64,000 nt of DNA from Malachius bipustulatus (taxonomy: Eukaryota; Arthropoda; Insecta; Coleoptera; Melyridae), in assembly GCA_910589415.1 (NCBI GenBank), contig OU342630.1, positions 44,052,012 through 44,116,011 on the forward strand. Reading direction: 5' to 3'. Below the pieces are notes generated by a model. The model was not told the origin of the DNA, did not search any database, and saw nothing but the letters and a program-made list of their open reading frames with translations. The position numbers and the translations under genes are program-made. This document shows, one piece after another, positions 5,747 through 64,000 of the stretch (position 1 is the stretch's first letter; every line of letters starts with the position of its first letter).

Positions 5747-6084
5747 ACGTAACTTAACGACTGCTGTGAAGCAGCCGGGACCCCCTTTTTAACGTACCTC
5801 TCGGAGCACGAAATTCATATAAATAGAAAACGCATAAAATTTATACAAAATTGCAGAAAAAGATCTTTTAACTTAAAAAATGCGCAAAACTATTTTTTAG
5901 CGTCGTTAGGAAATGTAGACTAGACTCAATTTTCAAGTCAGCTATTGACTTTGAACTAAAAGTGCCTTGGTAGATATATTTTCTTCATTTTCCAACAAAT
6001 ATACGTGTTTAAAATGCGTAAATTTCAGAAGAAAAATTGAAAAAAAATTAATTATAATTTACGCCCTTAAAACGCTTGCATATA

Positions 6085-6636
6085 CAAGGTGTCCAGGTAT
6101 GAGTGTAAGAGCTACACGTGGCGACCTTCCTTGGACTATTTTGAGTAAAAAATCTTAATACAATAATGCTCTAAACCTCTTCACGGTGCCACACGAGGTC
6201 ATCAAAGTTAGAAATTCTGGGTCACAAATATGTATGCATATTATTGAACTTCTGTTTCCTTTTGCAGTTACGGTTAACATTTTTAAAGACTTTTGCAAAG
6301 TCTTATTTCATTTAATTTTCGTAACAGTGCAATTATTAACTTTTTTAACATTTCCTAAATTTTTTTTTAAGAAATGTTAAAAAAGTTAATAATTGCACTG
6401 TTACGAAAATTAAATGAAATAAGACTTTGCAAAAGTCTTTGAAAAAGGTTAACCGTAACTGCAAAAGGAAATAGAAGTTCAATAATATGCATATTTGTGA
6501 CCCAGAATTTCTAACTTTGATGACCTCCTGTGGCACCGTGAAGACGTTTAGAGCATTATTGTATTAAGATTTTTTACTCAAAATAGTCCAAGGAAGGTCG
6601 CCACGTGTAGCTCTTACACTCATACCTGGACACTTG
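6085..6636. mobile_element. palindromic foldback MITE, TA-flanked (552 bp)
   Basis: Two arms of about 270 bp are near-perfect inverted repeats meeting near 6361 at a short A/T spacer. The outer ends CAAGGTGTCCAGG / CCTGGACACTTG sit between TA dinucleotides, as expected for Tc1/mariner-type mobilisation. There is no coding capacity; the same peptide appears on both strands because of the palindrome. Confidence 0.8.
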
Positions 6637-6639
6637 TAT

Positions 6640-7394
6640 ATTAGCCCAATAGTTAAGGACATTCCCTGTCTCTTGTACCGCACCTTTCCATCAACAGATC
6701 TTCCTGATCGGTTTAATGCTACTGGGGCGCTTTTTTGTACGCAAGCAGAATATATTTTTTTTGCATCTGTTTGGTAAACGGAATAGGTATGTGGGTCGTT
6801 GTAAGATGACAACGACGTTATGGATGTCATCGTCTCTATACGAGCGTTATTTGCATAAGGCACGTACTACTTTGAGCTTGCGATGACTGTGGTAAGTCCG
6901 AGCGATGTATTCGGATTAATTTGAATAAAAATTACTGTCAAATTATGACTTTCAATATAATTTATGATTGACATTCAAACGAACGTTTAGTCTCCTATTT
7001 CGAGAAAATTTTTATCTAAGGGGCTTAGTGCTATTGGTTGTTTCTGTTATATGCGATGTCTTCACTACAATGGAAGACCCTATTTATTAACATTTTAATA
7101 CCTGACCGAATCTTTAAATATGCATAGTTAACTTAGCTGAAATGACTTATACAAATCCTTTGTTCTATACGTGACTCAATGAGCCGTTATAATTTATAAT
7201 TGATCACGAAGTATGATGATCAAATGGCCATGAAAAATGTCTGGACCATGTACTACATATGATTGAGTTTTTACAGCTTTATTGATAATTATTGTTTATT
7301 TATTTATTGCATTGATAACAACAGCGAATAAACAAAACTGCGGCGCTGCAGATATTTTACCAAAATTTGCAAACCGATCGATAACGTTACTATA
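6640..7394. other. non-coding, nothing recognised
   Basis: AT-rich sequence without supported genes or repeats. The frame on the minus strand at 6564-6863 overlaps the foldback and is not convincing. Confidence 0.3.
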
Positions 7395-10052: not shown

Positions 10053-10076
10053 AGTATACGTGACTGATATATTATA

Positions 10077-10658
10077 CAGGGTGTACCAGCTCGATTTAGA
10101 CAACGGTAAGGGCCGTGTAGGTCTCGTCAAGACGAAACGTTTTTTTATTTGAAGTTTTTGAATTTGGACCTTCGTTGCGGAAATATGGCCGACTTCCGGT
10201 TTTTAGTTTTTTGGCTCCAGTTTCGGCATTTTTAGGTTCTCGCCCAAACTGAAACTAGTTTTGGAAACTCCTTTAGCTTCAGTTACAACTTTCATATTGA
10301 AGTCAAGGTTCTATCTCTGTTGGATTCAAAATGGCGACATGCCAAAGACTTTAAATTTTAAGTCTTTGAATCAATTCAAATTGAATTAAATTGAAAAATT
10401 AAGATTTTGAATCCAACAGAGATAGAACCTTGACTTCAATATGAAAGTTGTAACTGAAGCTAAGGAGTTTCCAAAACTAGTTTCAGTTTGGGCGAGAACC
10501 TAAAAATGCCGAAACTGGAGCCAAAAAACTAAAAACCGGAAGTCGGCCATATTTCCGCAACGAAGGTCCAAATCCAAAAACTTCAAATAAAAAAACGTTT
10601 CGTCTTGATGAGACCTACACGGCCCTTACCGTTGTCTAAATCGAGCTGGTACACCCTG
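10077..10658. mobile_element. palindromic foldback MITE, TA-flanked (582 bp)
   Basis: Arms of about 270 bp are near-perfect complements with ends CAGGGTGTACCAGC / GCTGGTACACCCTG between TA dinucleotides (10075-10076, 10659-10660). The centre lies near 10367. It interrupts the Harbinger-like element and is therefore younger. Confidence 0.85.
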
Positions 10659-11198
10659 TATATATGTCTCTGGTATAATTTTCCCTAACGACTGAGGAGA
10701 AATAAGCGTTGAAAACTTTAAGTCTTCATAATTTCTTCCAGTAGCTAGATAGCGAAGTGTTAATCGCTTATGTGGTGATATGGCATCCCTTATTCAAATT
10801 GTGTTCTGTTTTTCTATTATTGGAGACACTAACTTTAATAGCGTTACGTAACTATCTTCATCCATCCTCAGGTAATTTCGCCAATCGTCTGGTTCCAATC
10901 GTAGTTCTTCTAGAAGATTTATATGCGTATATTATGAGCGTTTTAAAAGCCAATCTTTGACCCATTTTTTTCGAATTTTCGGCTTTTGAATTTATTTATT
11001 TCTTTTCTTTTTAACTAGAACAGCGTACGCCGCTGCCAGTAAAATATATTCGTCCTCACTGTTCATCGCGTACTTCGATACTGCTTGCGTGACAAGCTAG
11101 TGTGTAGATCTGTGGCTGAGAAACGCTCATCGTACATGGACGATGCACATGTATGGCAAACATGTATGACGCACTTGTGTGCTAGTCTGTGGGCACCT

Positions 11199-12292: not shown

Positions 12293-13602
12293 ATAGTCTA
12301 GGGAAAACCCCATTAAAAAACCTAGACACACCATCCTGTTGAGATTGTTGGTTTGAAGTATTCCAATCATTTTGCAGCATCCGTCTGAGGTTATCTGGCT
12401 GTTAATGTAGATTTTGTTTACAAGAGCTTCAAATTCTGTAACCAGTCTATTGTTTCGGTGGAAATTTCATGAATTGCTTGAAAACCTCCAGAAAATTTGG
12501 TTAAAGGACATTCATTGACAATGTGCAATGTGATTGATGGATTCTTCAGGATGTCCGCAAATACAGGAAGCGCTTGGTATTAAATTCCATTTATGTAACA
12601 TTGAATTACATCTACCGTGTCCTGTTCTTGTACCCGATTTACTTGTACCCAGACTTTCCTTCTTATTTCAAAACCGTTGACTACTGATGAAGGATCTTCG
12701 ATTAAAGTGTTGTTGAATAAAGAAACACTTTTATTTCGCCAATCATTTCTCCATTCATCTTCAATTTTAAATGGTCGATCCAGGTATGTTTCTAGCCACA
12801 CAGGTCTTCTTGATTTTAATCTCGTTGTTGGAAGATTATTCAGGTCCGATGTTATTGAAAAATCATCTGGAAATGTTCGGTATTTATTCATGATTTTATG
12901 TGTTGCTTGTTGTCTTCGGAGATTAGATGGAGCAATATTTGATAAAACAGATAACCAAGGGATCGGAGTTGAGGAAATTGTTCCAGTAATAATTCGTAAT
13001 GTTTGGTTCAGTTGAATATCCACTTTTGATTGATGTACACTGTTGAGCCATACGGGTGCACAATATTCCGCTGTTGAATAAACAAGTGCAAGAGCTGATG
13101 TGCGAATTGTTTTTGCATTGGCTCCCCAAGTCGTTCCAGCAAGTTTGTATAGAATATTATTCCTTGTTTTTAATTTTTGTTTCACTTTTTCTAAGTGTTG
13201 ATTATAGGTTAAAGATATATCCAAAGTCACACCAAGATATTTTGGATTGAAATTATGATTCAGTGACGATCCGTTGAAAGTTATATTTAGCTTTTTAGAT
13301 TTTTGGTGGTTATTGAGATGGAAACATGTAACTTCTGTTTTTGAAGAGTTTAAGCAAAGACGCCATTTCTTAAAGTAATCATTCATGATTTTCAAATCAG
13401 AGCACAGCGTTTCTTCTAATAAATTAAATTCGCTGTTTTGGTAAGTTAAAATAATGTCATCGGCATATATGAATTTTCTAGATTTGGTTGCAGGCAAATC
13501 ACTAATGTAAATATTGAATAGCAGTGGAGATAAAACAGAACCTTGTGGGAGACCATTATTTAAGATTCTGTATTTACTGCTCTTTTCGTTTACGAAAACT
13601 TT
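12293..13602 (-). pseudogene. 5'-truncated non-LTR retrotransposon reverse transcriptase (Jockey/CR1-like group)
   Basis: Read from 13602 downward, the frame gives NNGLPQGSVLSPLLFNIYI (RT motif 4 region), FIYADDI (the catalytic YADD box), KTEV and PKYLGVTLD, then the thumb (LKTRNNILYKLAGTTWGA) and a long C-terminal region. These are the standard blocks of LINE reverse transcriptases, which copy element RNA at a nicked target. The open frame closes at 12580. In another frame CICGHPEESINHI follows, a C-terminal zinc-knuckle-like motif, so a frameshift is present near 12580-12600. The N-terminal RT, endonuclease and ORF1 are missing, and the 5' end joins A/T-rich sequence near 13602. The element is dead. 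Confidence 0.85.
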
Positions 13603-14133
13603 TATTTATATTATTTATTATTTATTTATATTACTAAGTACCTACACATATACCTGATACCTAGCATAATATACCAAATATGTTTTACTTAAGTTACATC
13701 GGCAACATTTTTTGTTGCCTTTGCTTTTGATGTTGTTGATTGTATATATCATGCAAAATTGTTAACATTTGTAGGTATTTCCCACCCAACTAATGGCTCC
13801 AAAATTTTGCTCCAATTTAATGCTCAATTTCAGAATTGACTCTTTGGCATCTCGCAGTGGCTAAACCAAGCAACTTTGTACCCAGATAAGTTGACTTAAA
13901 TCCACTTTGTTTCATCCGAGGAACATTTGACAGTAAAGGACATTTAAAAATTTCAGGGACATCCTGTGTAAATTAGTCGTTGACAAATTATTTCCAAATT
14001 ATTCAAAAGAGGTACATATATATTTGGAAAAACCAAAATAGATATTCCAGTGACTGATATAGGTAAGCAATCGGCTATTACTACTCACTCAATTTACTGT
14101 CTCTATAATAAGAACAATTACTTGCTCGTGGAA
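13603..14133 (+). other. intron sequence, nothing recognised
   Basis: AT-rich, with no supported gene or repeat. Confidence 0.4.
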
Positions 14134-24440: not shown

Positions 24441-25720
24441 GTGGGTCCCGTGGTGTAGTGGACGTTGGTCCGCCAGCCGGTAGACCTTGGTTCGAACCTC
24501 ACTAGCAGCCAACAAAACTATTTGTTATGCTTCTCGAACCAAGATCGAGATCCTCCTTGCGGCAGGCAATGGCAAACCACCTTACAGTATCCTGCCTAGT
24601 GAAACCTCTCAATTAGTGTCGTTCGGACTCCGGCGATAAAAAGGGAGATCCCATATGTCCGTATACAGGGTGCACCATGTATCCTTCTCTATATTGCTAT
24701 CTCCTAACGCTAACAGATACAGGGTCGGTTAAACAAATCCAAAGGAGCGCAATTTTGTGGCCATCTCGATTCCGTCGAGGCATACAAGATATCTGTGACC
24801 GTTCCTGAAATATCCTGAAAAAACTGAAAAATCGAGATTTCTTATTTTTGCCATATCTTTTTTATTATTGGAGATTAATGAATATTTTTTTGTGGGCTTA
24901 CATAAGTTCGGCAAGAGCTACCCATCTGTCATTTCAAAAATTTTCAAAGCCGACTAGATCCCAGAATTTTCATAGTCGACTTTTGTTTTTCATATGGCCA
25001 CATAGTGTTTTTTTTTATGTCGTTCGGTATAAAAAAGTCATAAAAACTAAAAATTGTTAAACTTCAAAAAATAAATTAAAAAAAAATTTATTCTTTTTTC
25101 TTTACAAAAAAAAACTTTTTTAGACCGAATTTTATAGATAAATTAAAAAACCATAAGGCAAGCACTATTTCGGCGTATTTTATAAATGTTGGACGTTTTT
25201 CGACGATTTTTTATTAGGTTTTTCTTTAAAATATTAAGAATAAAAATTTTAAATTTTTTTTTGAAGTTTATTAATTTTTGGTTTCCATTATTTTTTTCAT
25301 ATCGAACGACATAAAAAAATAATATGGCGGCCATAAGAAAAACGAAAGTTGACTGTGAAAACTCTTGGATCTAGTAGGCCTTGAAAATTTTTGAAATGTC
25401 AGATGGATAGCTCTTAACGGCTTATGTAAGCCTATACAAAAAATTATTTATTAATTTCCAATAATAAAAGAGATATGAGGAAAATAAGAAATCTCGATTT
25501 TTCCGTTTTTTCAGGATATTTCAGGAACGGTCACAGATATCTTGCATGTTTTGACGAATTCGAGATGGCCACATAACTGCGCATCTTTTCTCTAATTTAA
25601 CCGACCCTGTATCTCTTAGCGTTCAGGAGATAGCAATATAGAGAAGGATACATGGTGCACCCTGTATAGTGAGAGGTAGCCTACACCCAGTTGTGGGTAT
25701 GGCACTGTAAGAAGAATTCT
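24441..25720 (+). mobile_element. tRNA-derived SINE, split by a foldback MITE
   Basis: It starts with a tRNA-like head: A box TGGTGTAGTGG (24451-24461) and B box GGTTCGAACCT (24489-24499), the internal RNA polymerase III promoter. The body contains GGCAGGCAATGGCAAACCAC and continues to 24665. After the MITE it resumes (GTGAGAGGTAGCCTACACCC) to about 25720. It lies inside the LINE relic, so it is younger than the LINE and older than the MITE. The acceptor-stem halves do not pair, so it is not a functional tRNA gene. Confidence 0.75.
24666..25664. mobile_element. 1.0 kb palindromic foldback MITE, copy 1
   Basis: CAGGGTGCACCATGTATCCT and complement form the ends, flanked by TA (24664-24665, 25665-25666). 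Arms of nearly 490 bp are close complements meeting near 25165. A sister copy lies at 34537-35534. Confidence 0.85.
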
Positions 25721-34136: not shown

Positions 34137-34536
34137 CGGAAAAGTTACTATTAAGTGATAAATTATTTTACGTATAATTTATCATTTTTTTTTGGAAATA
34201 CCAATTTTGATAAAAAAGGGATTTAACGAGACTCGTAAATGCGTGTAGTTTTACGAAATCTTGGGTCAGTTCGTAGTTTTATAAAAAAAAGAGCACTAAT
34301 GGTTACCCGAAGTACGAAGTTATAAGTTCGTAAAACACTTACACATTCCATAGGAGTCCATAGAATCCTGCTTAAACCTCGATCAAACTTTAATATTTTG
34401 AAGTCATATTTCTCCAAAACTATTCAGTTATTTGAACTAACTTTTGTAAAGTGAAAAATCAAAACAAGTCTAGTTTTCGAGGGCAAATCCGCATCCTATG
34501 TTATCATCTGTTAATATTAGTAATAGTTTTGCTATA

Positions 34537-35534
34537 CAGGGTGCACCATATATCCTTCTCTATATTGCTATCTCCTAACGCTAACAGATACAGGGTCGGT
34601 TAAACAAGTCCAAAGGAGCGCAATTTTGTGGCCATCTCGAATCCGTCGAGACATACAAGATATCTGTGACCGTTCCTGAAATATCCTGAAAAAACTGAAA
34701 AATCGAGATTTCTTATTTTTTCCATATCTTTTTTATTATTGGAGATTAAGAAATAATTTTTTGTGGGCTTACATAAGTCGGCAAGAGCTAGCCATCTGAC
34801 ATTTCAAAAATTTTCAAAACCGACTAAATCGCAGAATTTTCATAGCCAACTTTCGTTTTTCTTATGGCCACCATATTGTTTTTTTATGTTCTTCGGTATA
34901 AAAAAAATCATAAAAACAAAAAATTGTTAAACTTCAAAAAATAAATTAAAAAATTTTTTATTCTTCTTTTTTCTTTACAATAAAGACACTTTTTAGACCG
35001 AATTTCATAGATAAATTAAAAAACCATAAGGCAGGCACTATTTCGGCGTATTTTACAAATGTTGACGTTTTTCGACGATTTTTTTTAGGTTTTTCTTTGA
35101 AAAAAGAAAAATAAAAATTTGAAAAAAATTTTTTGAAGTTTATTAATTTTTGGTTTCCATTATTTTTTTCAAATCGAACGATATAAAAAAATAATATGGC
35201 GGCCATAAGAAAAACGAAAGTCGACTGTGAAAACTCTTGGATCTAGTAGACCTTGAAAATTTTTGAAATGTCAGATGGATAGCTCGTAACGGCTTATGTA
35301 AGCCTACAAAAAATTATTTATTAATTTCCAATAATAAAAAAGATATGACGAAAATAAGAAATCTCGATTTTTCAGTTTTTTAAGTATATTTCAGGAACGG
35401 TCACAGATATCTTTCATGTTTTGACGAATTCGAGATGGCCACATAAATGCGCATCTTTTCTCTAATTTAACCGACCCTGTATCTATTAGCGTTCAGGAGA
35501 TAGCAATATAGAGAAGTATACATGGTGCACCCTA
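34537..35534. mobile_element. 1.0 kb palindromic foldback MITE, copy 2
   Basis: Same family as 24666-25664, with ends CAGGGTGCACCATATATCC and complement, flanked by TA (34535-34536, 35535-35536). Arms of about 490 bp diverge slightly from copy 1. Confidence 0.85.
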
Positions 35535-35536
35535 TA

Positions 35537-36817
35537 TAATGTAGAACCAGTGTTATTACGAGTATTATGGACGAAACTTAAAAAATATTGTTGTAAACTT
35601 TTTGAAAATTCTGAATATACCTACTCGATTAGTTTTAATAAATATGAAAGTTTTTATCTAAAATTCATTGATAAAATCTGCATGGCTCAGAGAGTCAACT
35701 GAGTAGAAACTGAGCTAATCGATTTTCATTCTTATAGATCACGGTTTCCTCCTTTATCTTTCAACTATACCGACAGTGTCGGTCGTGAAATTCTTGGAAG
35801 ATCATATCGACCAAATCTGAACTGAATACACAAGCACTGATGACCACTTGTGCAGCGACTTCCATGTTCTTGCTTCCTGCTAAAGCGCCGCCAACACACT
35901 CTCTCTCTTCTTGACATTCTTTTTTCTGCATGCTATGGGCATTTTTGTTGTAATATTTTCTGTGGCCTGACCGTCTTAGGCGGATCTAAAACGTCATTCT
36001 TATATCTAGAACTATCAGAATCTTGGCAGGTTTATCCATTCATCAGTTTTGTAGGGACCAATTCGGGCAACTTGGTCTTCTGACCATATACATTTACATA
36101 TGTTTTTTAGCCCTGTATGATCTTCTGCTTCGAATTCGGAATAAAAAATCAGAATCAACTTGATCCTTTTCATTTCACTCACCACTATCATACTACGAGT
36201 ATGTTCATTGTTAAATCTATTCAGACTTCACGTAACCATAAAATACCTGAACCGTTCCAGAATTTGACAATCAACTTTCAGATTCTCCCAGTTGGAGGCA
36301 TAGGTATTAAGAGAAACTTATTAGGCACTGATTTGAAACCATATACCACTCGGTAATCTTCGTGCCCGCTTTATATTTTGTAAATCACGTGCATATGACG
36401 TTTCGATTACACAGTGCAATTAATAGAGTAATTATTCTTATTATTATAACTCGAACGTTAAAGAATTCACAATAAATCATAAGTTCATGATATTGGCTTT
36501 GCATTGACGAGACCTTGAAATATTATTTCAAGAAGCTCTAATTTCGCTTGTCCACATCTTTGTATTTATTTTCGTTTCGAGTTCCCTTCAAATTAAAACA
36601 TAGCTTAATTTTATAGAGCATTTAATTTATTAAGGTCCAATTTAAGAAACAAAATTATGTTATCTGTATCTTGATCGAACTGATTGAATTCTCTAAAAAA
36701 AGTTTACATTTTTTATTTCATTAATTATTATGTAATTTTAAACGGTACAATTTTTCGATGTAATCTATAATTTTTTTTAAATCAAAAAATTTCTAATTTT
36801 TATTAAATTAATTCTAG
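35537..36817 (+). other. end of intron before the last p130Cas exon
   Basis: No gene is supported. The minus strand at about 36100-35850 reads through short protein-like phrases (GPYKTDEWINLPRF) with stops, possibly a transposon gene remnant that I do not recognise. It ends with the acceptor AATTCTAG at 36817. Confidence 0.4.
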
Positions 36818-38353
36818 GTGATAACTCCGAAGAGATTCAACGATGTATACTTCTACGACACTCCCCCCATTCGTTGTTCGCCTTCAACCCCATCTGGTGG
36901 TATTCAAAGCCTCAGCCCCAGAGAACCAACCGGCGACTGCTACGACGTCCCTCCAAAGGCTATTCCTGTAACTAATGAAGGCTTTAGAAACTGTCCACGA
37001 TGTTCTCCGGCTCCCTCATGTGTCTCCCCCATCAGCCGGGATAGCAGGGACTCTTGTGAAGCTTACGACATCCCTCGACCCCTCGCCAACCACCACAACC
37101 AACTCACACCTTCTAGCTCGGCAAGTTCTCTAACCGCCGACTCGCTGAGCTCATCTAATAGGAGTAGTCTGGCTAATATGCCGGATTATGATATTCCCAA
37201 ACCGGCTGCAAGGGTCCCGCATATTCTTTACCATCCCCTTCATAGCACAGACGTGAATTTGAGCAATTTAAAGGAGCTTCCTTTGGAACTAGGATCGGCC
37301 CTTGAAACTTTAGAGAGGTTACAGACTGAAACAACAAGTGCAATTTCAAAATTACTGGGATTTGTGGTTGGACCGCAATGGAGAACTAAAGAAAAATTAG
37401 AAAATAATCTTATGGATATAAAATTGTATGTTACTAGGTTACAAACGTCCCTTCACGATCTAGCAGAGTTTAGCGAAGGTACTTTGGGTAATGCGACGAA
37501 AGCTTCTGATAAAAATCTATGTTTAAAATTGCAACCTTTGGTGATAGCTCTCAAAAGATCCGACGCATTAGTAAATGAGGCTTGTGATAAACTTAAAGAT
37601 CATGGTTGGAATATCGACATACTTTCAAGACAAGCTGACGATGATAAGGCAAAACCAGACGAATTGGAGCACTTAGTAGCTTGCACGAGAGCGCTAACCG
37701 AAGATATCAGACAAGTAGCATCCTTCATACAAGGAAACGGCCTACTGCTTTTCAAAAGAGAACCGAACACCAACAACAATGAAATAGCGGAAGATTACGA
37801 TTACGTTCACCTAAATACGAAAGATGCAATGTCTAAGAAACATGCTGAAATTAGGGATGCTCTACCAACCGAACTGAAGAAAGGTTATGATAACTTGGTG
37901 AAGCAAGCCGATAATGTTGCAGTTGACAACGAAAGGCCTGCCTTGGATGCCGATGATAAACAACTGTTAACGTTTTTTGCTGCTCAAGGTGTTACACATC
38001 ATACAAATTTAACACAAGCAATTGATGCTTTCTTATTGACTGTCGAACATAATCAGCCGCCGAAAATTTTCTTGGCTCATGGTAAATTTGTTGTCCTTAG
38101 TGCTCATAAATTAGTTCATATTGGTGATACCGTGCACAGGAACATTTCTTGTAAAGATATAAAAGAACGCGCTTTAAATTGCTCAAATGCTTTAGCTGAT
38201 GCTTTGGCAACCTGTGTCAACAAAACGAAACAAGCAGCTTTGCAATTTCCTTCGGTGACTGCAGTTCAGGAAATGGTAGACTCTGTTGTTGACATATCAT
38301 ATTCGGCACGAGATCTGAAAGTTACTCTTGTACAAGCAGCGCATCCTGCGTAA
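36818..38353 (+). CDS. p130CAS: p130Cas adaptor, terminal coding exon (substrate, four-helix and FAT-like domains)
   Basis: The exon begins right after TTCTAG in phase 0 and encodes 511 residues to TAA. Counting from the exon start, VITPKRFNDVYFYD matches the conserved V-x-x-P-x-R segment. YDxP motifs at Tyr 13, 42, 83 and 124 are the Src/Abl phosphorylation and Crk SH2 docking type. Residues 97-120 are Ser-rich. About 149-314 form the serine-rich four-helix bundle, ending ASFIQGNGLLLFKR. EDYDYVHL at 325-332 is the Src-family SH2/SH3 docking site. About 378-509 form the FAT-like C-terminal domain (IFLAHGKFVVLSAHKLVHIGD). The protein scaffolds integrin and kinase signalling at adhesions. Only four YxxP sites are present, against about fifteen in vertebrate p130Cas. 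Confidence 0.95.
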   Translation: MITPKRFNDVYFYDTPPIRCSPSTPSGGIQSLSPREPTGDCYDVPPKAIPVTNEGFRNCPRCSPAPSCVSPISRDSRDSCEAYDIPRPLANHHNQLTPSSSASSLTADSLSSSNRSSLANMPDYDIPKPAARVPHILYHPLHSTDVNLSNLKELPLELGSALETLERLQTETTSAISKLLGFVVGPQWRTKEKLENNLMDIKLYVTRLQTSLHDLAEFSEGTLGNATKASDKNLCLKLQPLVIALKRSDALVNEACDKLKDHGWNIDILSRQADDDKAKPDELEHLVACTRALTEDIRQVASFIQGNGLLLFKREPNTNNNEIAEDYDYVHLNTKDAMSKKHAEIRDALPTELKKGYDNLVKQADNVAVDNERPALDADDKQLLTFFAAQGVTHHTNLTQAIDAFLLTVEHNQPPKIFLAHGKFVVLSAHKLVHIGDTVHRNISCKDIKERALNCSNALADALATCVNKTKQAALQFPSVTAVQEMVDSVVDISYSARDLKVTLVQAAHPA

Positions 38354-49444: not shown

Positions 49445-50745
49445 CGCACACTCTTCACGCACAATCGTTTAGAGTGTAAATTAAAAAATTGCAACCGATT
49501 TCAAGTAGTAGGTATCGTATTTAAAACGCACAAAATCGTTTACGTCTTATCAATACGCACACTCTTTACGCACAATTGTTAAGAGTGTAAGTTGCTTCAA
49601 ATATTGCAACCGAATTCAAATTGTTTTGTGTTTTATCGCGCAAACGTTTTTCCTGTTTATGCTGTCTCATCGATTTTACAAAGAATGTTCTTAAAAACTT
49701 GCAACGTGCACTCTTTACGCACAATTGTTTAGAGTGTAAATTGCATGAAAAATTGCAACCAAATTCAAATTGTTTTGTGTTTTATCCGCAAAAGGTTTTT
49801 CTGTTTATGTATTATCGATTTTGGAGAGGATATTCTTAAAAACTAGCTACGCACACTCTCTACGCACAATTATTATTGTTTAGTGTGTAAATTGCTTGAA
49901 ATATTATTTCAAATTGTTTTGTGTTTTATCGCGCAAACATTTTTCCAGTTTATGCTGTGTTATCGATTTTACAAAGAATCTTCTTAAAAACTTGCAACGT
50001 GCACTCTTTACGCACAATTGTTTAGAGTGTAAATTGCATGGAATATTACAACCGAATTTTTTTTTTTGTGTTTTATCCGCAAAAGGTTTTTCTGTTTATG
50101 TATTTTGCAGAGGATTTTCTTAAAAAACTAGCTACGCACAGTCTCTACGCACAATTATTGTTTAGTGTGTAAATTGCTTGAAATATTGCAACCGAATTCA
50201 AATTGTTTTGTGTTTTATCGCGCAAACGTTTTTCCTGTTTATTTATTATCGATTTTACAAAAAAAAGAGTAAAAAAAAATTACTACGCACACTCTCTACG
50301 CACAACTTACTGTTTAGAGTGTATGAAACATTGCAACCGAATTCAAATTGTTTTGTGTTTGAAGAAACAAAAGTTTTTTCTGTTTATGTCTTATTGATTT
50401 TACAAAGAATGTTCTTAAAAACTTGCTACGCACACTCTCTACGCACAATTGTTTAGAGTGTTTGAAACATTGTAACCGAATTCAAATTGTTTTGTGTTTG
50501 AAGAAACAAAAGTTATTTTCTGTTTACATCTTATCGATTTTACAAAGAATATGCTTAAAAACTTGCAACGTGCACTCTTTACGCACAATTGTTTAGAGTG
50601 TAAATTGCATGTAAAATTGCAACCAAATTCAAATTGTATTGTGTTTTATCGCGCAAAAGTTTTTTCTGTTTATCGATTTTACGAATAATTTTTTTATAAA
50701 CTTGCTACGCACAATCTCTACGCACAATTGTTTGGAGTGTAAATG
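49445..50745. repeat. satellite array, about ten monomers of 137-151 bp
   Basis: Monomers begin at about 49445, 49556, 49705, 49850, 49998, 50135, 50286, 50429, 50569 and 50708. Each opens with CGCACACTCT-like sequence, then ACGCACAATTG and GAGTGTAAATTG, so ACACTC and GAGTGT form a dyad. AATTCAAATTGTTTTGTGTT, a CGCGCAAA-like box and ATCGATTTTACAAAGAAT follow. The small frames that resemble each other here come from the repeat and are not genes. Confidence 0.9.
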
Positions 50746-51813
50746 TTTCTGATACCAAGCTCATTAAGAAAAGTAAGCACAAAATTTATTTGGCGCACAA
50801 ATAAATGTATGAATTTATATATGATGTATGAATTTTTTAAACTATATGTACCTATACAAAATGACAAAAATAATAGAGCTAACTGGAGCACAAATATTAT
50901 ATTTGAAAAAATGCATACCTACTATAATAATAGTAGGTATGTGTTTTTTCTGAGCATTGATCTAACTAATGACGAACATTCTATTTAATTTCAGCAGTAT
51001 CGTAATATAGACAGCATCAAAATTTGCTAGTGCATTCCAAGTGAAACATAAAAATAAATGATTTAGGAACTTAATAAGCTTTTTTAAAACGAACGTTATA
51101 ATGCCAAAAATAAGCTATTGATACTATTTATTTTACTATTATTAATACTTTTTTATCATTTTCTGTTTATATTTCTTATTGTTTTTAATGTAGAAATAGT
51201 TGATGTCTATTATTGTGATAAAATATGTGATGTATCTATAAAAAATCTCACTCCATATAGGGTAAGTTTTTTTTTCACTTTTCTCATGCATTCATGTCAC
51301 TAAAAAATATACGCATTATGTAATGATTGACTTTATATTATTTTACCAATGTACAAGAAAATGAAATCAATTTTACTGAAATTTTAATGGCCGATAAAAT
51401 AAAACATTTACTTCTCGAATAAGATTTACTTAGCAGCAACTATTTCAGTATATAGACTGATTACTTTAGGCCTAAGTAAATTTTCATGTAAGTAACAAGC
51501 TTTATAATACCGGTTATCAGAAGAGTAATTTTTACGAGAAACTTACACGCAGCAGGCAAAACTAGCCTAGGTAGACTGTATTAGGTGCAGTGTTATGTGT
51601 AATATTAAAAAAAATATAAACTACGTTGACCCCTAAGTGTATAAATGTTTAAAAAAATATTGTAAGTGGTGTTAGAAGTAGAATTTTCTGCTTAAAAAAG
51701 ATGTATTAAAAAATATTGAATAGATTTTTAAGTGTATTTTATATTTTTTTATTGAATTTCGAAGAATTATTGCTTCACTAAATTTCCGCAATACGAACTA
51801 TCTACATAGGTTA
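50746..51813. other. intergenic, nothing recognised
   Basis: No supported feature. Confidence 0.4.
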
Positions 51814-51817
51814 GTTC
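51814..51817. repeat. target site duplication GTTC, left
   Basis: Matches GTTC at 59357-59360 directly after the second LTR. Confidence 0.75.
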
Positions 51818-52540
51818 TGAAATGGATCGCACCTAGGTAGGATTATAAGGAAATTATCTCCTTCGCCTCATTAAATCAGCCCAAAATCGAAAAAAGCAAA
51901 CAGTGCAAAAATTATGTTAGGAAATTAAATACAGCTACGCGCCGTTGCATCAATAGAAACAATTCCTGCCTGCACATTAAATATTCATAAACAGAAATGT
52001 TCTCGCTCTGGTAAAAAGCCAGCTTCTAAAACGACCGAGCTAGGGTAGCAACGCACCAGCACCGAATATTGCCGCAGGGTATTGGAAGGACATTCCCTAG
52101 CTGCGTGAACGAGATACCGACCGCCGGCCGGGTGGAAAGATTTGTAAAGTAAACAATAACACCTCGCATACACAATAGAAACTCATTAGGTATCCTGCCC
52201 ACGAAAATGAAATTTACACGTATTGATAGAGCGAATTAAGATATGACAGCCGCCGAAAGTTCATTACGCTACATAGACAACAAGTAGGTGAAAAGACGCT
52301 ATGAAGTATAAGCAGGAGAATAATTAGTAAGTCGACACAATGAAAAGTACCTAAACGCGTTGACCGATTTGAAGGAAAATTTAGATAGTGCAGGTTTCGG
52401 ACAAATTAGTGAGGTAGCCGCGAGGTCAACTCGCCAAATCTCAAGACAATTGAGATACGATTAAGGACTAAATCACAGAATGAGAGCAGTGTCGATAAGG
52501 TTCATTATTGCGCGGTGTTTAGAAAGCGGGCGACTGCTTC

Positions 52541-52578
52541 TATAAAAGCAGACGTCTTCCAGCAACTCGCTCTCAGAT
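52541..52578 (+). promoter_or_regulatory. LTR core promoter, TATA box plus initiator
   Basis: TATAAAA at 52541 and TCAGAT at 52573-52578 have the spacing of a polymerase II core promoter. The same sequence is in the 3' LTR at 56361-56398. Confidence 0.6.
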
Positions 52579-53050
52579 CAATTTTGACTTCCTAACCCTT
52601 TATACGGTACCTAGAGATGGCATATTGTGGACTCCGGGATACCTAATCCTTATCTATACCCGAAAATTCGACTAGAGATGGCATTTAGTGGACTCCGGTC
52701 GAATTTCCTTTATCTACCTTGGAAAAATTCCAGTTGAAAACCCGAAAAGGCCAAAACAATCGTTTCACGCCAATTTCTAATCACAATTCTAATAAAACTC
52801 GGCTAGAGATGGCATTTAGTGGACTCCGGTCGAGTTTCCTTTACCTATCCCGGGAAATCCCAGTGAAACATACTTCATTCGCATCTCGAACTCAATATTC
52901 GCAGTTGGCAAATTCTCTGCGAACCAATTCACTAGTAGATGGCAAAGCGCATATTCCGAAGGAATTTCCTTCACAAAGTAGGGAAAATCCTTTGAGAGGA
53001 TAGTTAGGGAAGATTTCTCTTCGAAACAAAATCCACATCAATAAATAATT
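52579..53050 (+). repeat. variable block in the 5' LTR with repeated GAGATGGC...GTGGACTCC modules
   Basis: CTAGAGATGGCATTTAGTGG followed by ACTCCGGTCGA recurs at about 52671 and 52804, with a variant at 52611 and a degraded one near 52934. The corresponding 3' LTR block has a different version of the module. Confidence 0.85.
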
Positions 53051-54780
53051 AAACAGATTCACCAAATCCGCGAGCGCAAGTCCCCTTTTAAATCAGACCC
53101 AATAATCAACTAGGTATTAGGCGGCACCACAATAGGTACCTACGCAATTACGTCAACAATTAGAAATAAACCAAGTTAGGCAGGAAACAGGAATAAATAA
53201 TTTAATAGTCACGTATAGGAAATCGAGATAGAGCTAGGAGCGACAATAGACCCAGGTCAGGAAATAACTTATAAACAAAAAGGCCCATGATTCAATCATC
53301 CCATTCTTCGAAGAGTCCGAGTTTCTATTTAGCGCAGATGGTTAGGAAGGAAGCAGTCCCTTTAAAAACGATTTAGAAAGTGAAAGGAGTTCCTCGCCAT
53401 TATATGACACCATAAATAAATATCACATAGCAGAGCACCCCCGGTTAGTACAGGTCTGGATAGGAACGAGGCAGCGTTGTCAGATGTAGCATCTGTTAAT
53501 TCGCAAATATTATCAGGAAATACTAATTCCATTACAACACCCAATTAGGAGTTAAAATACGTACTCTATTTCCAAACGTTGGGGGAGGGATCCACCTCGA
53601 TGTCCAGGTGAAGACCTCCGTTGTACCAATACAAGAGTATACCTCTTTAAAGTGGAAATCGTACAACAGGGCAAAAGTACCCTCAGAGCAGAACAGAGTA
53701 ACGCAAACCAAAGCAAGGTTGCCAGGTGTAATAAACGCCCTCACATGTCAGGAAATCCAATAATCAAAATAAAGTTAGGATCATGAATCGCAATTCACAA
53801 ATAAAAATCCAAAGCAAATCAAAATTAATCCCGAGTATGGGAAAGCCAAAGAAGAAAATCCAGAAACCAAAGTGTCTTTATAAGGTCGTTTTTCCGAATC
53901 TCTTCTAACCAGATTTTATACATACCTAAATCTTATGTGACAAACGTTATTATTATGTTCTCATCATACTATCTACGCTCTTTGGGTTGATAGGTCGACG
54001 TACTCGTGTTATTGGCGGACCGGTGGCTGGTACCGTACAATCAAATAAGTAAATTTGTCCGTAAACATGCCTAAACACGAATGAGGGATAAAAGTCCAGC
54101 ATTTTCAATCATTAACTAGATTAATGGTTAAAGAGTCGTGGTCTGTAGTGTGGTCAGCTGATAATCACGTTGATGAACAAAGATATTCGAACGGAGCCAA
54201 CATGCTCTGGGTAATAAATTAAGGTGTGTAGAAAAATCTACAATAATACAGTTGATTAAGGTTTCAATCAGAAACGCAAATAAGGTAAATCACAAGGTAT
54301 AACAGTAACAAATGCCTAAGGGCAAGGTAACATATATGACATAAAGGTCGCCTGACGAGGCAGCATCGACGGGTGCAATAAAAGGTAGAACAAGACAAAT
54401 AACAACAAGGTATACAAAGTGATAACTAAATACAGTATCACCCAGGTTATGAATTAAATAAACGGAGGTGAAATAATTCACACTCCTAGGTAAATCAACT
54501 GTGTAAATAAAATCATTAAATAAAAGAGAATCGGAAGGAACGATGTTATAAAAGATACAAGTCAACATTCAAGAGAAATGGCAACCCCGTACTTACTCGC
54601 TAGGTAAAACCAACTAAAACGGCCCGAGTCTCCACCCCCGAGAACAAGAACAGCTATTATAGGTAGGCAACCGAAATGCCGACAGCCGTCCAAGTTCGAT
54701 GCTTAACTCACGCCAGACACACAGCGACGCAGCTAGACATACAGGGTGATTCTCCCGGTTGGAAATTGAATAGGTAATAG

Positions 54781-55011
54781 ACAGACATTCCCGCATATAC
54801 CGGGTCGTCTGTAAACAACATGGTTGTATTCTTTAATTAATTCAAGCAGTTGCTTGAAGTGAGATCAAAGAATCTAGAAAAAGGAAATTAGGCAAGGAAA
54901 ATCGTTGAATAGTCAAACCCACAGACATTTCCGCATATACCGGATAGTCTGTAACCGAAATAAAAGCGAAACGAAACAATAAGACATTCCCGCATATACC
55001 GGGTAGTCTGT
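54781..55011 (+). repeat. three copies of a hairpin motif in the 5' LTR
   Basis: ACAGACATTCCCGCATATAC followed by CGGGTCGTCTGT at 54781-54812, with near copies at 54921-54952 and 54981-55011. ACAGAC pairs with GTCTGT and CCCG with CGGG, leaving a CATATA loop. The same three are in the 3' LTR from 58656. Confidence 0.8.
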
Positions 55012-55481
55012 AAACGAAACAAAAATAAAAAGAAAGCACAGGTGTGCAAAAGAGTGGAATCCGAAATGGATTATAGTTTGAAAGATGGATGAAAGGGATC
55101 CCTCTTCGCTTTCCATTTTCTTTTGCACTCTCTATGCAAAAACACAGCCCATCTCGCCATTCACCATTTTACACACTTGCAAACGAATTCTCTCGCTCAT
55201 CACTCGCTTTTAAAACCTCTGATAGAAAGCCAACAGTTAACAACGAGTCCCAGAAAATTTCCCGCTTCCGACAAAAGAAAAATCCCAGTAGGTTCTTAGC
55301 GCATCCGTTTCGGCCATAGTAATCCTGGCATACCTCAATCAAAGAGCAGGGGCGACTACGGTAATTACGGTAAACACAACGAGGAAAACACAGCGGTCCT
55401 ATTAGGAGAAACTCGGAAAACTAGACGATCACTCGGTGGCTTTTCGCGACAGATCCTGCGACCCGGGTCCTCGACGTTACA

Positions 55482-55637
55482 TTGGTGCCGTGACCAGGAT
55501 TGAGGGCTAATACGCGGGAATAAATTGGCCGAGAAGGAAAACGAAAACGAAGAACAACACGAAAACTAAGTAGGAGAGTTAGGGGGCGTCTTCCGTCTAT
55601 CAGGGTGCCCTCTGATAGCCTGAAGACGAGGGGGCGG
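55482..55637 (+). mobile_element. internal region (156 bp) with PBS, hairpin and PPT
   Basis: TGGTGCCGTGACCAGGAT starts one base after the 5' LTR and looks like a tRNA primer-binding site; the tRNA was not determined. GAAGACGAGGGGGCGG (55622-55637) ends at the 3' LTR and serves as the polypurine tract. Between them CGTCTTC (55587) pairs with GAAGACG (55622), and CTATCAG with CTGATAG, giving a strong stem-loop that overlaps the tract. There is no coding capacity, so all proteins must come from another element. Confidence 0.8.
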
Positions 55638-58600
55638 TGAAATGGATCGCACCTAGGTAGGATTATAAGGAAATTATCTCCTTCGCCTCATTAAATCAGC
55701 CCAAAATCGAAAAAAGCAAACAGTGCAAAAATTATGTTAGGAAATTAAATACAGCTACGCGCCGTTGCATCAATAGAAACAATTCCTGCCTGCACATTAA
55801 ATATTCATAAACAGAAATGTTCTCGCTCTGGTAAAAAGCCAGCTTCTAAAACGACCGAGCTAGGGTAGCAACGCACCAGCACCGAATATTGCCGCAGGGT
55901 ATTGGAAGGACATTCCCTAGCTGCGTGAACGAGATACCGACCGCCGGCCGGGTGGAAAGATTTGTAAAGTAAACAATAACACCTCGCATACACAATAGAA
56001 ACTCATTAGGTATCCTGCCCACGAAAATGAAATTTACACGTATTGATAGAGCGAATTAAGATATGACAGCCGCCGAAAGTTCATTACGCTACATAGACAA
56101 CAAGTAGGTGAAAAGACGCTATGAAGTATAAGCAGGAGAATAATTAGTAAGTCGACACAATGAAAAGTACCTAAACGCGTTGACCGATTTGAAGGAAAAT
56201 TTAGATAGTGCAGGTTTCGGACAAATTAGTGAGGTAGCCGCGAGGTCAACTCGCCAAATCTCAAGACAATTGAGATACGATTAAGGACTAAATCACAGAA
56301 TGAGAGCAGTGTCGATAAGGTTCATTATTGCGCGGTGTTTAGAAAGCGGGCGACTGCTTCTATAAAAGCAGACGTCTTCCAGCAACTCGCTCTCAGATAA
56401 AATTCGACTTCCTAACCCTTTGGACGTGTCTGGAGATGACATAAGTGGACTCTAGATCGCCCAATCCTATTCTAAAATTCCATAATTAGTTTGGAGATGA
56501 CGAACGAGTGGACTCCGATCTAATTTCCCTCATCTACCTAATTAAAATTCCAATTGTAACCCTGCGAGATTGATTCTCATCCAATAGAACTTCAGCACGC
56601 AATTCTAAAATTCCCTAATTAGTTTGGAGATGACGAACGAGTGGACTCCGATCTAATTTCCCTCATCTACCTAATTAAAATTCCAATTGTAACCCTGCGA
56701 GATTGAATCTCGTCCAATAGAACTTCAGCACACAATTCTAAAATTCCATAATTAGTTTGGAGATGACGAATGAGTGGACTCCGATCTGATTTCCCTCCTT
56801 TATCTAATTAAAAACTCCTATTAAAATCTGGTTAGTCCGGATTCCATCGCAAGAAGACTTCATATTGGAAAAATAGTTAGGGAAGTTCTTTTAGAACAAA
56901 ATAAAATACAAATAAATAAATAATCAAACAGATTCACCAAATCCGCGAGCGCAAGTCCCCTTTTAAATCAGACCCAATAATCAACTAGGTATTAGGCGGC
57001 ACCACAATAGGTACCTACGCAATTACGTCAACAATTAGAAATAAACCAAGTTAGGCAGGAAACAGGAATAAATAATTTAATAGTCACGTATAGGAAATCG
57101 AGATAGAGCTAGGAGCGACAATAGACCCAGGTCAGGAAATAACTTATAAACAAAAAGGCCCATGATTCAATCATCCCATTCTTCGAAGAGTCCGAGTTTC
57201 TATTTAGCGCAGATGGTTAGGAAGGAAGCAGTCCCTTTAAAAACGATTTAGAAAGTGAAAGGAGTTCCTCGCCATTATATGACACCATAAATAAATATCA
57301 CATAGCAGAGCACCCCCGGTTAGTACAGGTCTGGATAGGAACGAGGCAGCGTTGTCAGATGTAGCATCTGTTAATTCGCAAATATTATCAGGAAATACTA
57401 ATTCCATTACAACACCCAATTAGGAGTTAAAATACGTACTCTATTTCCAAACGTTGGGGGAGGGATCCACCTCGATGTCCAGGTGAAGACCTCCGTTGTA
57501 CCAATACAAGAGTATACCTCTTTAAAGTGGAAATCGTACAACAGGGCAAAAGTACCCTCAGAGCAGAACAGAGTAACGCAAACCAAAGCAAGGTTGCCAG
57601 GTGTAATAAACGCCCTCACATGTCAGGAAATCCAATAATCAAAATAAAGTTAGGATCATGAATCGCAATTCACAAATAAAAATCCAAAGCAAATCAAAAT
57701 TAATCCCGAGTATGGGAAAGCCAAAGAAGAAAATCCAGAAACCAAAGTGTCTTTATAAGGTCGTTTTTCCGAATCTCTTCTAACCAGATTTTATACATAC
57801 CTAAATCTTATGTGACAAACGTTATTATTATGTTCTCATCATACTATCTACGCTCTTTGGGTTGATAGGTCGACGTACTCGTGTTATTGGCGGACCGGTG
57901 GCTGGTACCGTACAATCAAATAAGTAAATTTGTCCGTAAACATGCCTAAACACGAATGAGGGATAAAAGTCCAGCATTTCCAATCATTAACTAGATTAAT
58001 GGTTAAAGAGTCGTGGTCTGTAGTATGGTTAGCTGATAATCACGTTGATGAACAAAGATATTCGAACGGAGCCAACATGCTCTGGGTAATAAATTAAGGT
58101 GTGTAGAAAAATCTACAATAATACAGTTGATTAAGGTTTCAATCAGAAACGCAAATAAGGTAAATCACAAGGTATAACAGTAACAAATGCCTAAGGGCAA
58201 GGTAACATATATGACATAAAGGTCGCCTGACGAGGCAGCATCGACGGGTGCAATAAAAGGTAGAACAAGACAAATAACAACAAGGTATACAAAGTGATAA
58301 CTAAATACAGTATCACCCAGGTTATGAATTAAATAAACGGAGGTGAAATAATTCACACTCCTAGGTAAATCAACTGTGTAAATAAAATCATTAAATAAAA
58401 GAGAATCGGAAGGAACGATGTTATAAAAGATACAAGTCAACATTCAAGAGAAATGGCAACCCCGTACTTACTCGCTAGGTAAAACCAACTAAAACGGCCC
58501 GAGTCTCCACCCCCGAGAACAAGAACAGCTATTATAGGTAGGCAACCGAAATGCCGACAGCCGTCCAAGTTCGATGCTTAACTCACGCCAGACACACAGC

Positions 58601-59356
58601 GACGCAGCTAGACATACAGGGTGATTCTCCCGGTTGGAAATTGAATAGGTAATAGACAGACATTCCCGCATATACCGGGTCGTCTGTAAACAACATGGTT
58701 GTATTCTTTAATTAATTCAAGCAGTTGCTTGAAGTGAGATCAAAGAATCTAGAAAAAGGAAATTAGGCAAGGAAAATCGTTGAATAGTCAAACCCACAGA
58801 CATTTCCGCATATACCGGATAGTCTGTAACCGAAATAAAAGCGAAACGAAACAATAAGACATTCCCGCATATACCGGGTAGTCTGTAAACGAAACAAAAA
58901 TAAAAAGAAAGCACAGGTGTGCAAAAGAGTGGAATCCGAAATGGATTATAGTTTGAAAGATGGATGAAAGGGATCCCTCTTCGCTTTCCATTTTCTTTTG
59001 CACTCTCTATGCAAAAACACAGCCCATCTCGCCATTCACCATTTTACACACTTGCAAACGAATTCTCTCGCTCATCACTCGCTTTTAAAACCTCTGATAG
59101 AAAGCCAACAGTTAACAACGAGTCCCAGAAAATTTCCCGCTTCCGACAAAAGAAAAATCCCAGTAGGTTCTTAGCGCATCCGTTTCGGCCATAGTAATCC
59201 TGGCATACCTCAATCAAAGAGCAGGGGCGACTACGGTAATTACGGTAAACACAACGAGGAAAACACAGCGGTCCTATTAGGAGAAACTCGGAAAACTAGA
59301 CGATCACTCGGTGGCTTTTCGCGACAGATCCTGCGACCCGGGTCCTCGACGTTACA
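55638..59356 (+). mobile_element. 3' LTR (3719 bp) of the giant-LTR retrotransposon
   Basis: Same termini as the 5' LTR and the GTTC duplication follows at 59357-59360. Outside the variable block I saw only three clustered base differences (5' LTR about 54099-54151, 3' LTR about 57979-58029), so the insertion is recent. The 55-bp length difference lies entirely in the variable block. Confidence 0.9.
56399..56925 (+). repeat. variable block in the 3' LTR with a different module version
   Basis: TTGGAGATGACGAACGAGTG followed by GACTCCGATCTAATTTCC recurs at about 56490 and 56622 (132-bp period), with variants near 56430 and 56758. Only the skeleton GAGATG-C...GTGGACTC is shared with the 5' LTR block. 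Confidence 0.85.
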
Positions 59357-59360
59357 GTTC
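59357..59360. repeat. target site duplication GTTC, right
   Basis: Pairs with 51814-51817. Confidence 0.75.
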
Positions 59361-60112
59361 TATATACTCATTCATGTAATTATTATTATAATAAGCTTCG
59401 GATAATTTTAAAATAATTTTTATAGCATTTTTGACAAGTCTTAATAAGGTCTTAATAATTATTATTATGCAGAATTTTAGTTCGAAATGTATATGGAAAC
59501 TAAAAATTATCTTTAAATAATATTCAAAAAGGATATGTAATTGCCCAATCAGGGTCTTTAGTCGAAACTAGTCAAAACTGAATAGAGATATTACAGTAAA
59601 TGTTTTTTCAGGTTTATTAATTCAAATTCACTTTCTCGATAATGCGAGAAATGTTGGAATTACACTTTGTAAAAATGTGCGCAACTTATATGTAAGTACT
59701 TGACTTTTGCCCCCTTAGATCAAGAAGTGGAACATCTATAAATTGACTTGTTATTTATTTATGAGATGACTGCTGGGTATGTTATACTCCGCTTTTTACG
59801 TTATAAATTGGCTATGGAAACTTGATATTGCGAATTTCCTATTGCAATAAAAGAAAATTTCGAAATTTATTCTAATCGGCTTTAACGAATTAATAAAACG
59901 TGATTCTCATGCAATAGCGGGGCATCCTAGCCCCAGGTTTTATGGACTACATAGAACTGGGGCGCAAACCTTATCCATAACTTGGAGCGGCAAAAGCTTT
60001 TTGGAGGCGACAACTTTTATTGGTGTTAGGTATCGTAACTATCGTATCTATATTTTCTGACGAAGAAGGGCGCATTATTTCTTAGCCCACGATCGCTGAA
60101 TATCTTATAGAT
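59361..60112. other. intergenic, nothing recognised
   Basis: No supported gene or repeat. Confidence 0.4.
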
Positions 60113-63129: not shown

Positions 63130-63801
63130 TTAAGAGTCAAACAATGTTTACAGGATTTCGTAAACGATATTTTGTGATACAAGTTGCAAAATAGGAGTGT
63201 TTTAATTACGCGACGAAAATCGACAATCGTTGAATGCTTAAAACACTTCTATTTTGCAACTTGTGTCACAAAATAGTAGCTATATTACGATCTCCTGTAA
63301 ATCTTGTTTGACTCTTAAGCGAAACTGACGCTTAGAAAATTTCTTTTGTTGCATTAAGAGTCAAACAAGGTTTACAGGAGTTCGTAAAAGATATTTTGTG
63401 ATACAAGTTGCAAAATAATTGTGTTTTAATTACGCGACGAAAATTGACAATCGTTGAATGCTTAAAACACTTCTATTTTGCAACTTGTGTCACAAAATAG
63501 TAGCTATATTACGAACTCCTGTAAATCTTGTTTGACTCTTAAGCGAAACTGACGCTTAGAAAATTTCTTTTGTTGCATTAAGAGTCAAACAAGGTTTACA
63601 GGATTTCGTAAACGATATTTTGTGATACAAGTTGCAAAATAGGAGTGTTTTAATTACGCGACGAAAATCGGACAATCGTTGAATGCTTAAAACACTTCTA
63701 TTTTGCAACTTGTGTCACAAAATAGTAGCTATATTACGAACTCCTGTAAACCTTGTTTGACTCTTAAACAAAACTGACGCTTAGAATTTTTTTTTTGTTG
63801 C
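63130..63801. repeat. three 224-bp tandem repeats, each a large dyad
   Basis: Units start at 63130, 63354 and 63578 with TTAAGAGTCAAACAA. Within each, AAGAGTCAAACAAGGTTTAC pairs with GTAAATCTTGTTTGACTCTT, and AAACACTTCTATTTTGCAAC with the complement of its earlier half. Each unit is thus an inverted repeat around GCGACGAAAATCGACAATCG. Units differ by only a few bases. Confidence 0.9.
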
Positions 63802-64000
63802 ACAAGTTTTTTGTTAAGTCGCCAAGAAACAACGATTTATAAATTCTAGAAATTGGTATTTTATACTGTCAAAATGATGGGCCTCATGAAAACTTGCTTT
63901 TAATTGCCATTGTTTTTACTTTTCAGCACTAGTGCGTAAAAGAATGTTATTTTGAAACTGAAATGGAAATCAAAATATGAACTATATAACGAGATTTTCA
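63802..64000. other. window end, nothing recognised
   Basis: Non-coding AT-rich sequence. Confidence 0.3.

Follow-up and report, generated by a model that had tools for sequence, protein, structure and literature searches.

Different predicted R regions in the two long terminal repeats of one gene-less retrotransposon insertion in Malachius bipustulatus

In normal reverse transcription, both long terminal repeats (LTRs) of a retroelement derive from one minus strand. The two LTRs come out identical (PMC1950507), and LTR pairs serve as clocks because reverse transcription should make them so. Human immunodeficiency virus 1 (HIV-1) proviruses with asymmetric LTRs, which differ by deletions, have been described (26 of 88 proviruses), and an intermolecular plus-strand transfer has been proposed for them (PMC9278108). 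In plants, candidate gene-conversion tracts, mostly 100–1000 bp long, occur in 25% of LTR pairs, a proportion that is an upper limit, and complementary DNA (cDNA) has been named as a possible conversion template (PMC7251063). The element described here is an LTR retrotransposon at 51818–59356 of a 64,000-nt stretch of the Malachius bipustulatus genome (GCA_910589415.1, contig OU342630.1, 44,052,012–44,116,011, forward strand); this whole stretch is the window, and all positions below refer to it. Its left LTR (LTR1) and right LTR (LTR2) are nearly identical in U3 and U5 and carry different versions, R1 and R2, of the predicted R region between them (the type names R1, R1b and R2–R6 were coined in the present analysis). 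With a probability of about 0.53, ectopic gene conversion from a DNA or cDNA donor may have replaced the R of LTR1 in an insertion of R2 type.

Direct alignment of the two LTRs gives 0 differences over the 760 bp of U3 and 3 over the 2431 bp of U5 (54105 T/C, 54150 G/A and 54155 C/T). This sum of 3 in 3191 bp agrees with a preliminary description of the sequence, which had counted roughly three bases over about 3.2 kb and whose limits for the divergent block are exact by alignment (Table 1). Aligned over 596 columns, of which about 50 are identical flank, the two versions of the block agree in 349, and their similarity is roughly 60%. In LTR1 the block starts 4 nt past the A of CTCTCAG (52575) and ends 10 nt past the start of AATAAA. 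By these motifs it is taken to be the R region, from the predicted RNA start to the poly(A) signal; the RNA start and poly(A) site are motif predictions throughout (TATAAA, CTCTCAG, AATAAA). Ordinary scattered mutation, which the preliminary description had named as the finding that would speak against a discrete block, is ruled out by the near-identical flanks and a block that is about 40% different, and recombination between two separate insertions is ruled out by the intact target-site duplication. Because the GTTC duplication is intact and U3 and U5 differ so little, the locus points to one young insertion. All three U5 differences fall inside 51 of the 2431 bp (54105–54155 in LTR1, 57980–58030 in LTR2); two are variants known from other copies, and the third occurs, among the compared loci, in LTR1 alone.

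The genome (544 Mb in 52 contigs) was searched for related copies, which are named by contig (C1, C2 and so on) or by L-number. The best 40 matches were scored in each search, out of 775 (R1 probe), 1209 (internal part), 344 and 940 candidates, and all genome counts are lower bounds. Stretches of 10 kb were taken around 20 of the 30 merged places of the R1 search, the window excluded. On this comparison the R2 of LTR2 is probably native and the R1 of LTR1 probably imported, because the U5 of the window copy groups with R2-type copies and both of its LTRs carry the same U5-start haplotype, A. For the first kb of U5, the 12 best places besides the window's own (among the 40 scored, five of which have no known R type) belong to nine copies, and the six nearest are all on the R2 list: C13:22262530 with its partner at 97%, C6:33315203 and C2:29432990 at 96%, and C14:16316827, C2:14981324 and C6:21715762 at 95% (C13:22262530 and C2:29432990 are on that list by part of the R2 probe only). 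Two R1 copies (L030 and C1:38577302) follow at 95% by the same measure, as does an R1b pair. Haplotype B was found at the U5 start of 18 of 22 R1 and 2 of 12 R2 elements (Fisher p 0.0006); 3 of the R1 and 7 of the R2 elements have haplotype A, and the remainder are mosaic or different. The tally was made by hand on loci drawn by R probes, the window excluded. Where R1 loci do carry haplotype A (L030, L031 and L034), the end of R is altered, and the combination seen in LTR1, a usual R1 end followed by haplotype A, occurs in no other of the 20 R1 loci, except partly in L032.

The right border of the import falls after the final base of R and before the first position at which U5 differs from the donor. 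That position stands at +6 to +18 for 17 of the 20 R1 loci and at +35 or +49 for L031, L034 and L030, and the import thus ends no more than 17 bp into U5 with any of the 17 as donor and no more than 48 bp with the other three. The left border is not placeable, since many R1 copies and some R2 copies agree fully over the final ~345 bp of U3. The proposal in the preliminary description that breakpoints fall at the start site and near the R/U5 junction is therefore borne out on the right side only. Nor is the start site a general border, since the divergence of types R3–R5 from R1 and R2 sets in upstream of the predicted RNA start, in the stretch that follows the TATA box.

Mixed pairs of R are rare. 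Among the 40 elements found by their internal part, 36 have the same R in both LTRs, one (the window copy) is mixed and three are without a call; wherever both LTRs of a matched pair were aligned, their R identity is at least 99%. Fourteen of the matched pairs were assigned by the presence of both LTRs on the R1 list or the R2 list, and 9 + 13 by fetched LTR pieces. The 14 were found with R1 and R2 probes, the list of 40 being drawn by the internal part and not by R, and for one matched pair (C3:51875847) the comparison covers just 67 nt. In the three elements without a call, the left stretch is not LTR (C6:13145102), the R of the left LTR lies outside the fetched piece (C4:24508502), or the pieces are not alignable to each other and no R start is seen (C17:14973908). 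Eight single matches of R2 type were checked downstream; seven, all except C2:31099322, are LTR ends without an internal part and therefore not left halves of mixed pairs. The frequency of 1 in 37 elements with a call is as expected of accidents, and the recurrence of mixed pairs considered in the preliminary description was not found. Diversification of the leader at every insertion, one of the origins suggested there, is ruled out by the 36 matched elements.

The leader types, which the preliminary description had proposed to count, number at least six in this one genome; they are strongly diverged and share one hairpin core. The 40 internal-part elements comprise seven of R1, six of R1b, seven of R2, ten of R3, six of R4, one each of R5 and R6, the mixed copy and one to which no type was assigned (the right LTR alone gave the type of one R3 and one R4). 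In a set of 36 LTRs (28 R1 and 8 R2, some from the same element and the window's two included), the distance in U3 is 0.018 between types against 0.027 and 0.014 within them, and the R distance between R1 and R2 is 0.378. By these distances R1 and R2 have one common U3 pool. Five of the six R types start with GACTYC.TAACCCTT, and R6 starts with TTCCTTAACCCTT, a shorter match. Exchange of R over a shared U3 is thus shown for R1 and R2 and only suggested for R3–R6, because R3–R5 depart before the RNA start and several R3 and R4 copies have another U3 type, 75–79% like that of the window copy; U3 of 78–80% is also found with R1 (L022 and L032). Some copies have a breakpoint near one end of R. In L023, L024 and L026 an R1 body opens with R2-like bases, in L031 and L034 an R1 body finishes in an R2-like stretch, and in the R2 pair C3:16305005 the last stretch is R1-like.

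The repeated module of R is a predicted hairpin with the core GAGANGRC–loop–GYGNACTC and opposed A/A and G/G. When R1 and R2 are taken together (11 modules), the share of cells that pair is 85.6%, a value that none of 500 shuffles attains (76.7%), and slid versions give no more than 47.1%; across 20 modules from six R types the values are 73.2%, 64.9% (0 of 500) and at most 39.4%. In the set of 20, shuffles give 22.6 cells with changes on both sides where the modules have 43, and a covariation of 0.186 where the modules have 0.313; no shuffle of 500 is as high in either measure, and slid structures reach a covariation of at most 0.159. Base pairs are kept through changes on both sides, as in a conserved RNA structure. 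Counted by pairs, changes on both sides do not exceed shuffles (6 of 17 in the 11 modules; 10 of 17 in the 20, reached by 229 of 500 shuffles), nor does the number of pair types in either test (29 types in the 20 modules, 255 of 500 shuffles). The slid controls count for more than the shuffles, because related sequences can exceed shuffles without any structure, although slid controls for their part lean towards any structure that was built from the sequences under test. Up to E = 1, the module's covariance model matches 54 sites in 11 sources (150,920 bases); its seven sites in the window all lie inside the two R blocks, and a simple module motif likewise gives seven matches in the window, all on the + strand within R and none elsewhere. 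Folding of the whole R is little better than shuffles (z −1.52 and −1.20), and the module hairpin alone stands out. Judging from position and repetition, the hairpins may serve packaging, dimerisation or strand transfer. A coding role of the module is ruled out by reading frames that differ between R1 and R2.

The two LTRs were also compared in seven full-length copies besides the window copy, two of which (L030 and L032) are without the first bases of one LTR in the stretch taken. In L035, nine clustered differences begin at about +49 of U5 and the left LTR has 284 extra bp; 2289 identical bp come next, and one more difference lies near the LTR start. With its left LTR (L035, 136–4048), in which the U5 start is 284 bp longer, mosaic and partly duplicated and the remainder is nearly the same as in the right LTR, this copy is a second asymmetric insertion. 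Three differences separate the LTRs of L032, one at the final base of R and the others at +11 and +18, with opposite haplotype states in the two LTRs; L022, L027, L029 and L030 have 1, 1, 3 and 0 over the aligned part. L017 has one difference and eight at the very end, and L032 three more at the end, where the LTR ends are lacking or altered. Nine further pairs show no differences around the R/U5 border (in eight of them about 200 nt were compared). Pairs that differ at or just after this border are thus 3 of 17 (the window copy, L032 and L035). These few cases hint that the RNA end may be linked to a hot spot, but the window copy also has its small cluster at 54105–54155.

These observations are best explained as follows. 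A non-autonomous retrotransposon of R2 type would have inserted with two identical LTRs, and later, or at the very end of synthesis, the R of the left LTR alone would have been overwritten from an R1-type template. The route would be ectopic gene conversion resembling gap repair, from either an LTR or a cDNA of R1 type, and U3 and U5 would keep the sequence of the recipient; the copying event itself is one that we infer. Local replacement is favoured because a single event suffices and the flanks are kept. The patch of another type in one repeat, between recipient flanks, is what gene conversion would leave, a pattern that conversion and a switch in the course of reverse transcription have in common, and the local patch of another kind in the left-LTR U5 of L035 is counted in support of local replacement. 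The swap looks dramatic because R consists of hairpin arrays in deeply different versions, which in R1 and R2 lie on a shared U3 pool. Several points weigh against conversion. The best 40 of 775 candidates include no donor; the R1 copy nearest to that of LTR1 is 98% identical. Six of the nine differences between the R1 of LTR1 and the majority of 20 R1 loci are private, and all of these lie in R positions 342–438, in the 3′ third of R1. A random tract would usually have carried U5 differences along, and none was carried, although 17 of the 20 R1 loci have such a difference in the first 18 nt. The small cluster of U5 differences at 54105–54155 is unexplained by conversion of R. The three pairs with patches at or just after the R/U5 border, moreover, hint at a process linked to the RNA end and not at random repair.

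Another course, an unlikely one, is a switch while the left LTR was being completed: the minus strand would leave its template at the R/U5 border, copy R1 from a co-packaged molecule and return at the start of R, and host repair would fix R1. The closeness of the import border to the R/U5 junction suits such a course, hairpins could stall synthesis, the start shared by five of the six R types (shorter in the sixth) could serve the return, and L023, L024 and L026 join R2-like first bases to an R1 body. The odd LTR also seems to be the left one in both assignable cases (the window copy and L035), and within-LTR recombinants of the Arabidopsis element Onsen mostly fit the first switch, via R (PMC5668417). 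It needs, however, two switches in one 480-nt stretch, and no second whole-R exchange is present among the 37 elements. An intermolecular plus-strand transfer in a particle with two RNAs, which would take the left LTR from one cDNA and the right LTR from the other, is somewhat less probable still. The mechanism has already been proposed for HIV (PMC9278108) and would explain the intact target-site duplication, yet it needs two molecules with the same U3, a U5 that differs at 3 of 2431 bp and different R, and the 36 matched elements also stand against it. Two independent co-packaged RNAs are unlikely because no scored R1 copy has the U5 of the window copy. Of the three origins put forward in the preliminary description, local gene conversion is accordingly the best placed, two-RNA template switching being made unlikely by an R1 copy that comes no nearer than 95% in U5 among the 40 scored.

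It is a shade more doubtful that R itself is the unit of exchange, with R-only RNAs, running from the promoter to their own poly(A) site, replacing R in resident LTRs. Such RNAs, reverse-transcribed or used as repair templates, would give borders at the RNA start and the poly(A) site; leader cassettes would circulate over shared U3 and U5, and the window copy would be one event caught in one LTR. An assembly or haplotype artefact, in which the assembler took the left R from another copy, is a concern in a high-copy family and is set aside by argument as improbable. A misassembly would need to start and stop near the borders of R, the adjoining U5 is this copy's own in both LTRs (the next best is 97%), and the R1 of LTR1 is at most 98% identical to any other scored copy, so that no scored copy can have been misplaced. 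Least probable is a three-LTR composite, as in cereals, that lost one unit by LTR recombination and was left with two different LTRs. Composites of this kind with target-site duplications have been reported (PMC1950507), but the middle LTR would bring its own U5, which is nearly the same in both LTRs here, and no composite is seen in the 10-kb stretches around seven full-length elements.

The element has direct LTRs with TG...CA ends, a 156-bp internal part and a 4-bp duplication of GTTC on both sides (Table 1). No open reading frame of at least 100 aa overlaps 50000–60000, and gag, pol and env are therefore lacking from it. As nearly the whole element is LTR and holds no genes, it must by its sequence rely on a helper. 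The putative primer-binding site presumably fits tRNA-His, and neither a tRNA gene nor an Rfam family at gathering score was found within the window. The layout, with 3.7-kb LTRs around so short an internal part, is unusual, and the RNA would be mostly U5. Single LTRs predominate in the family: 13 of the 20 fetched places hold one R-bearing LTR without an internal part and 7 of 20 are full-length.

Table 1. Features of the retrotransposon, with positions in the window
Feature	Position	Strand	Basis or remark
Left target-site duplication GTTC	51814–51817	+	Flanking sequence
LTR1, 3664 bp, TGAAATGG...CGTTACA	51818–55481	+	Self-alignment
U3 of LTR1	51818–52577	+	TATAAA at 52541; 0 differences to LTR2; last few bases possibly past RNA start
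R block type R1, probably imported, three hairpin modules	52579–53050	+	Predicted RNA start ~52575, AATAAA 53040
Hairpin module 1 of R1	52599–52648	+	Covariance model match
Hairpin module 2 of R1	52660–52709	+	Covariance model match
Hairpin module 3 of R1	52791–52840	+	Covariance model match
U5 of LTR1, 2431 bp, start haplotype A (ACCAAATCCGCGAGCG)	53051–55481	+	Alignment
Whole internal part, 156 bp, no open reading frame listed	55482–55637	+	
Putative primer-binding site TGGTGCCGTGACCAGGAT	55483–55500	+	Sequence, directly after LTR1
Polypurine-tract-like GAGGGGGCGG	55628–55637	+	Sequence, directly before LTR2
LTR2, 3719 bp	55638–59356	+	Self-alignment
R block type R2, probably native, four hairpin modules, three in 133-bp tandem units	56399–56925	+	
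Hairpin module 1 of R2	56418–56466	+	Covariance model match
Hairpin module 2 of R2	56479–56529	+	Covariance model match
Hairpin module 3 of R2	56612–56662	+	Covariance model match
Hairpin module 4 of R2	56745–56795	+	Covariance model match
U5 of LTR2	56926–59356	+	Alignment with LTR1 U5
Right target-site duplication GTTC	59357–59360	+	Flanking sequence

Elsewhere in the window, a tandem array of about eight units of ~139–145 bp (49554–50744) lies 1 kb upstream of the element, and three 224-bp tandem units at 63130–63802 also match themselves inverted. Near-perfect palindromes at 6080–6641 (~560 bp, 95%) and 10069–10668 (~600 bp, 92%) are perhaps foldback elements, and two 1-kb copies (24662–25674 and 34533–35545), 93% alike, have inverted ends of ~440 bp each. 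A 341-codon open frame at 12580–13605 (−) resembles, by eye, a remnant of a non-LTR reverse transcriptase. A 511-codon open frame at 36818–38353 (+) looks by eye like an exon of what we take to be an arthropod p130Cas-type adaptor gene.

The multi-type leader with its hairpin is a more interesting result than the swap. The family offers a natural assay of the evolution of a retroelement leader, with at least six diverged R types around one hairpin core and with R1 and R2 on a common pool of promoters, and the conserved hairpin is a candidate recognition element for a helper particle carrying the gene-less RNA. If the borders of R prove to be preferred exchange points, a strand-transfer step or the RNA ends would be tied directly to leader exchange. 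The window copy would also yield a false age if its R were counted in an LTR clock.

No description of an R exchanged alone between the two LTRs of one insertion was found among the open-access papers searched, and the closest systems each match this locus in part. TRIM and other non-autonomous elements (PbTRIM of ants, the TRIMs of bivalves, Helenus and Ajax) resemble the window element in having two LTRs, a primer-binding site (putative here), a purine tract (polypurine-tract-like here), no genes, a target-site duplication and dependence on a helper, and the duplication is of 4 bp as in animal Helenus. Unlike TRIMs, which are short elements with short LTRs, it has LTRs of 3.7 kb, consists almost entirely of LTR and carries a structured R in several types. 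In Onsen (Copia78) of Arabidopsis, LTRs have recombined between family members, mostly in a manner that fits first strand transfer within R, as in the present family; the Onsen recombinants are hybrid LTRs of new insertions, however, and an insertion with different R types in its two LTRs does not appear in the available portion of that report (PMC5668417). The asymmetric proviruses of HIV-1 are like the window copy in that the LTRs of one insertion differ by a block and are otherwise alike, but the differences there are deletions, whereas here a block has probably been replaced by a homologous one that is ~40% diverged (PMC9278108). Plant LTR conversion is comparable in the size of its tracts, which were inferred from stretches that are too similar, whereas the block in the window copy stands out as a stretch that is too different, with a border near the RNA end (PMC7251063).

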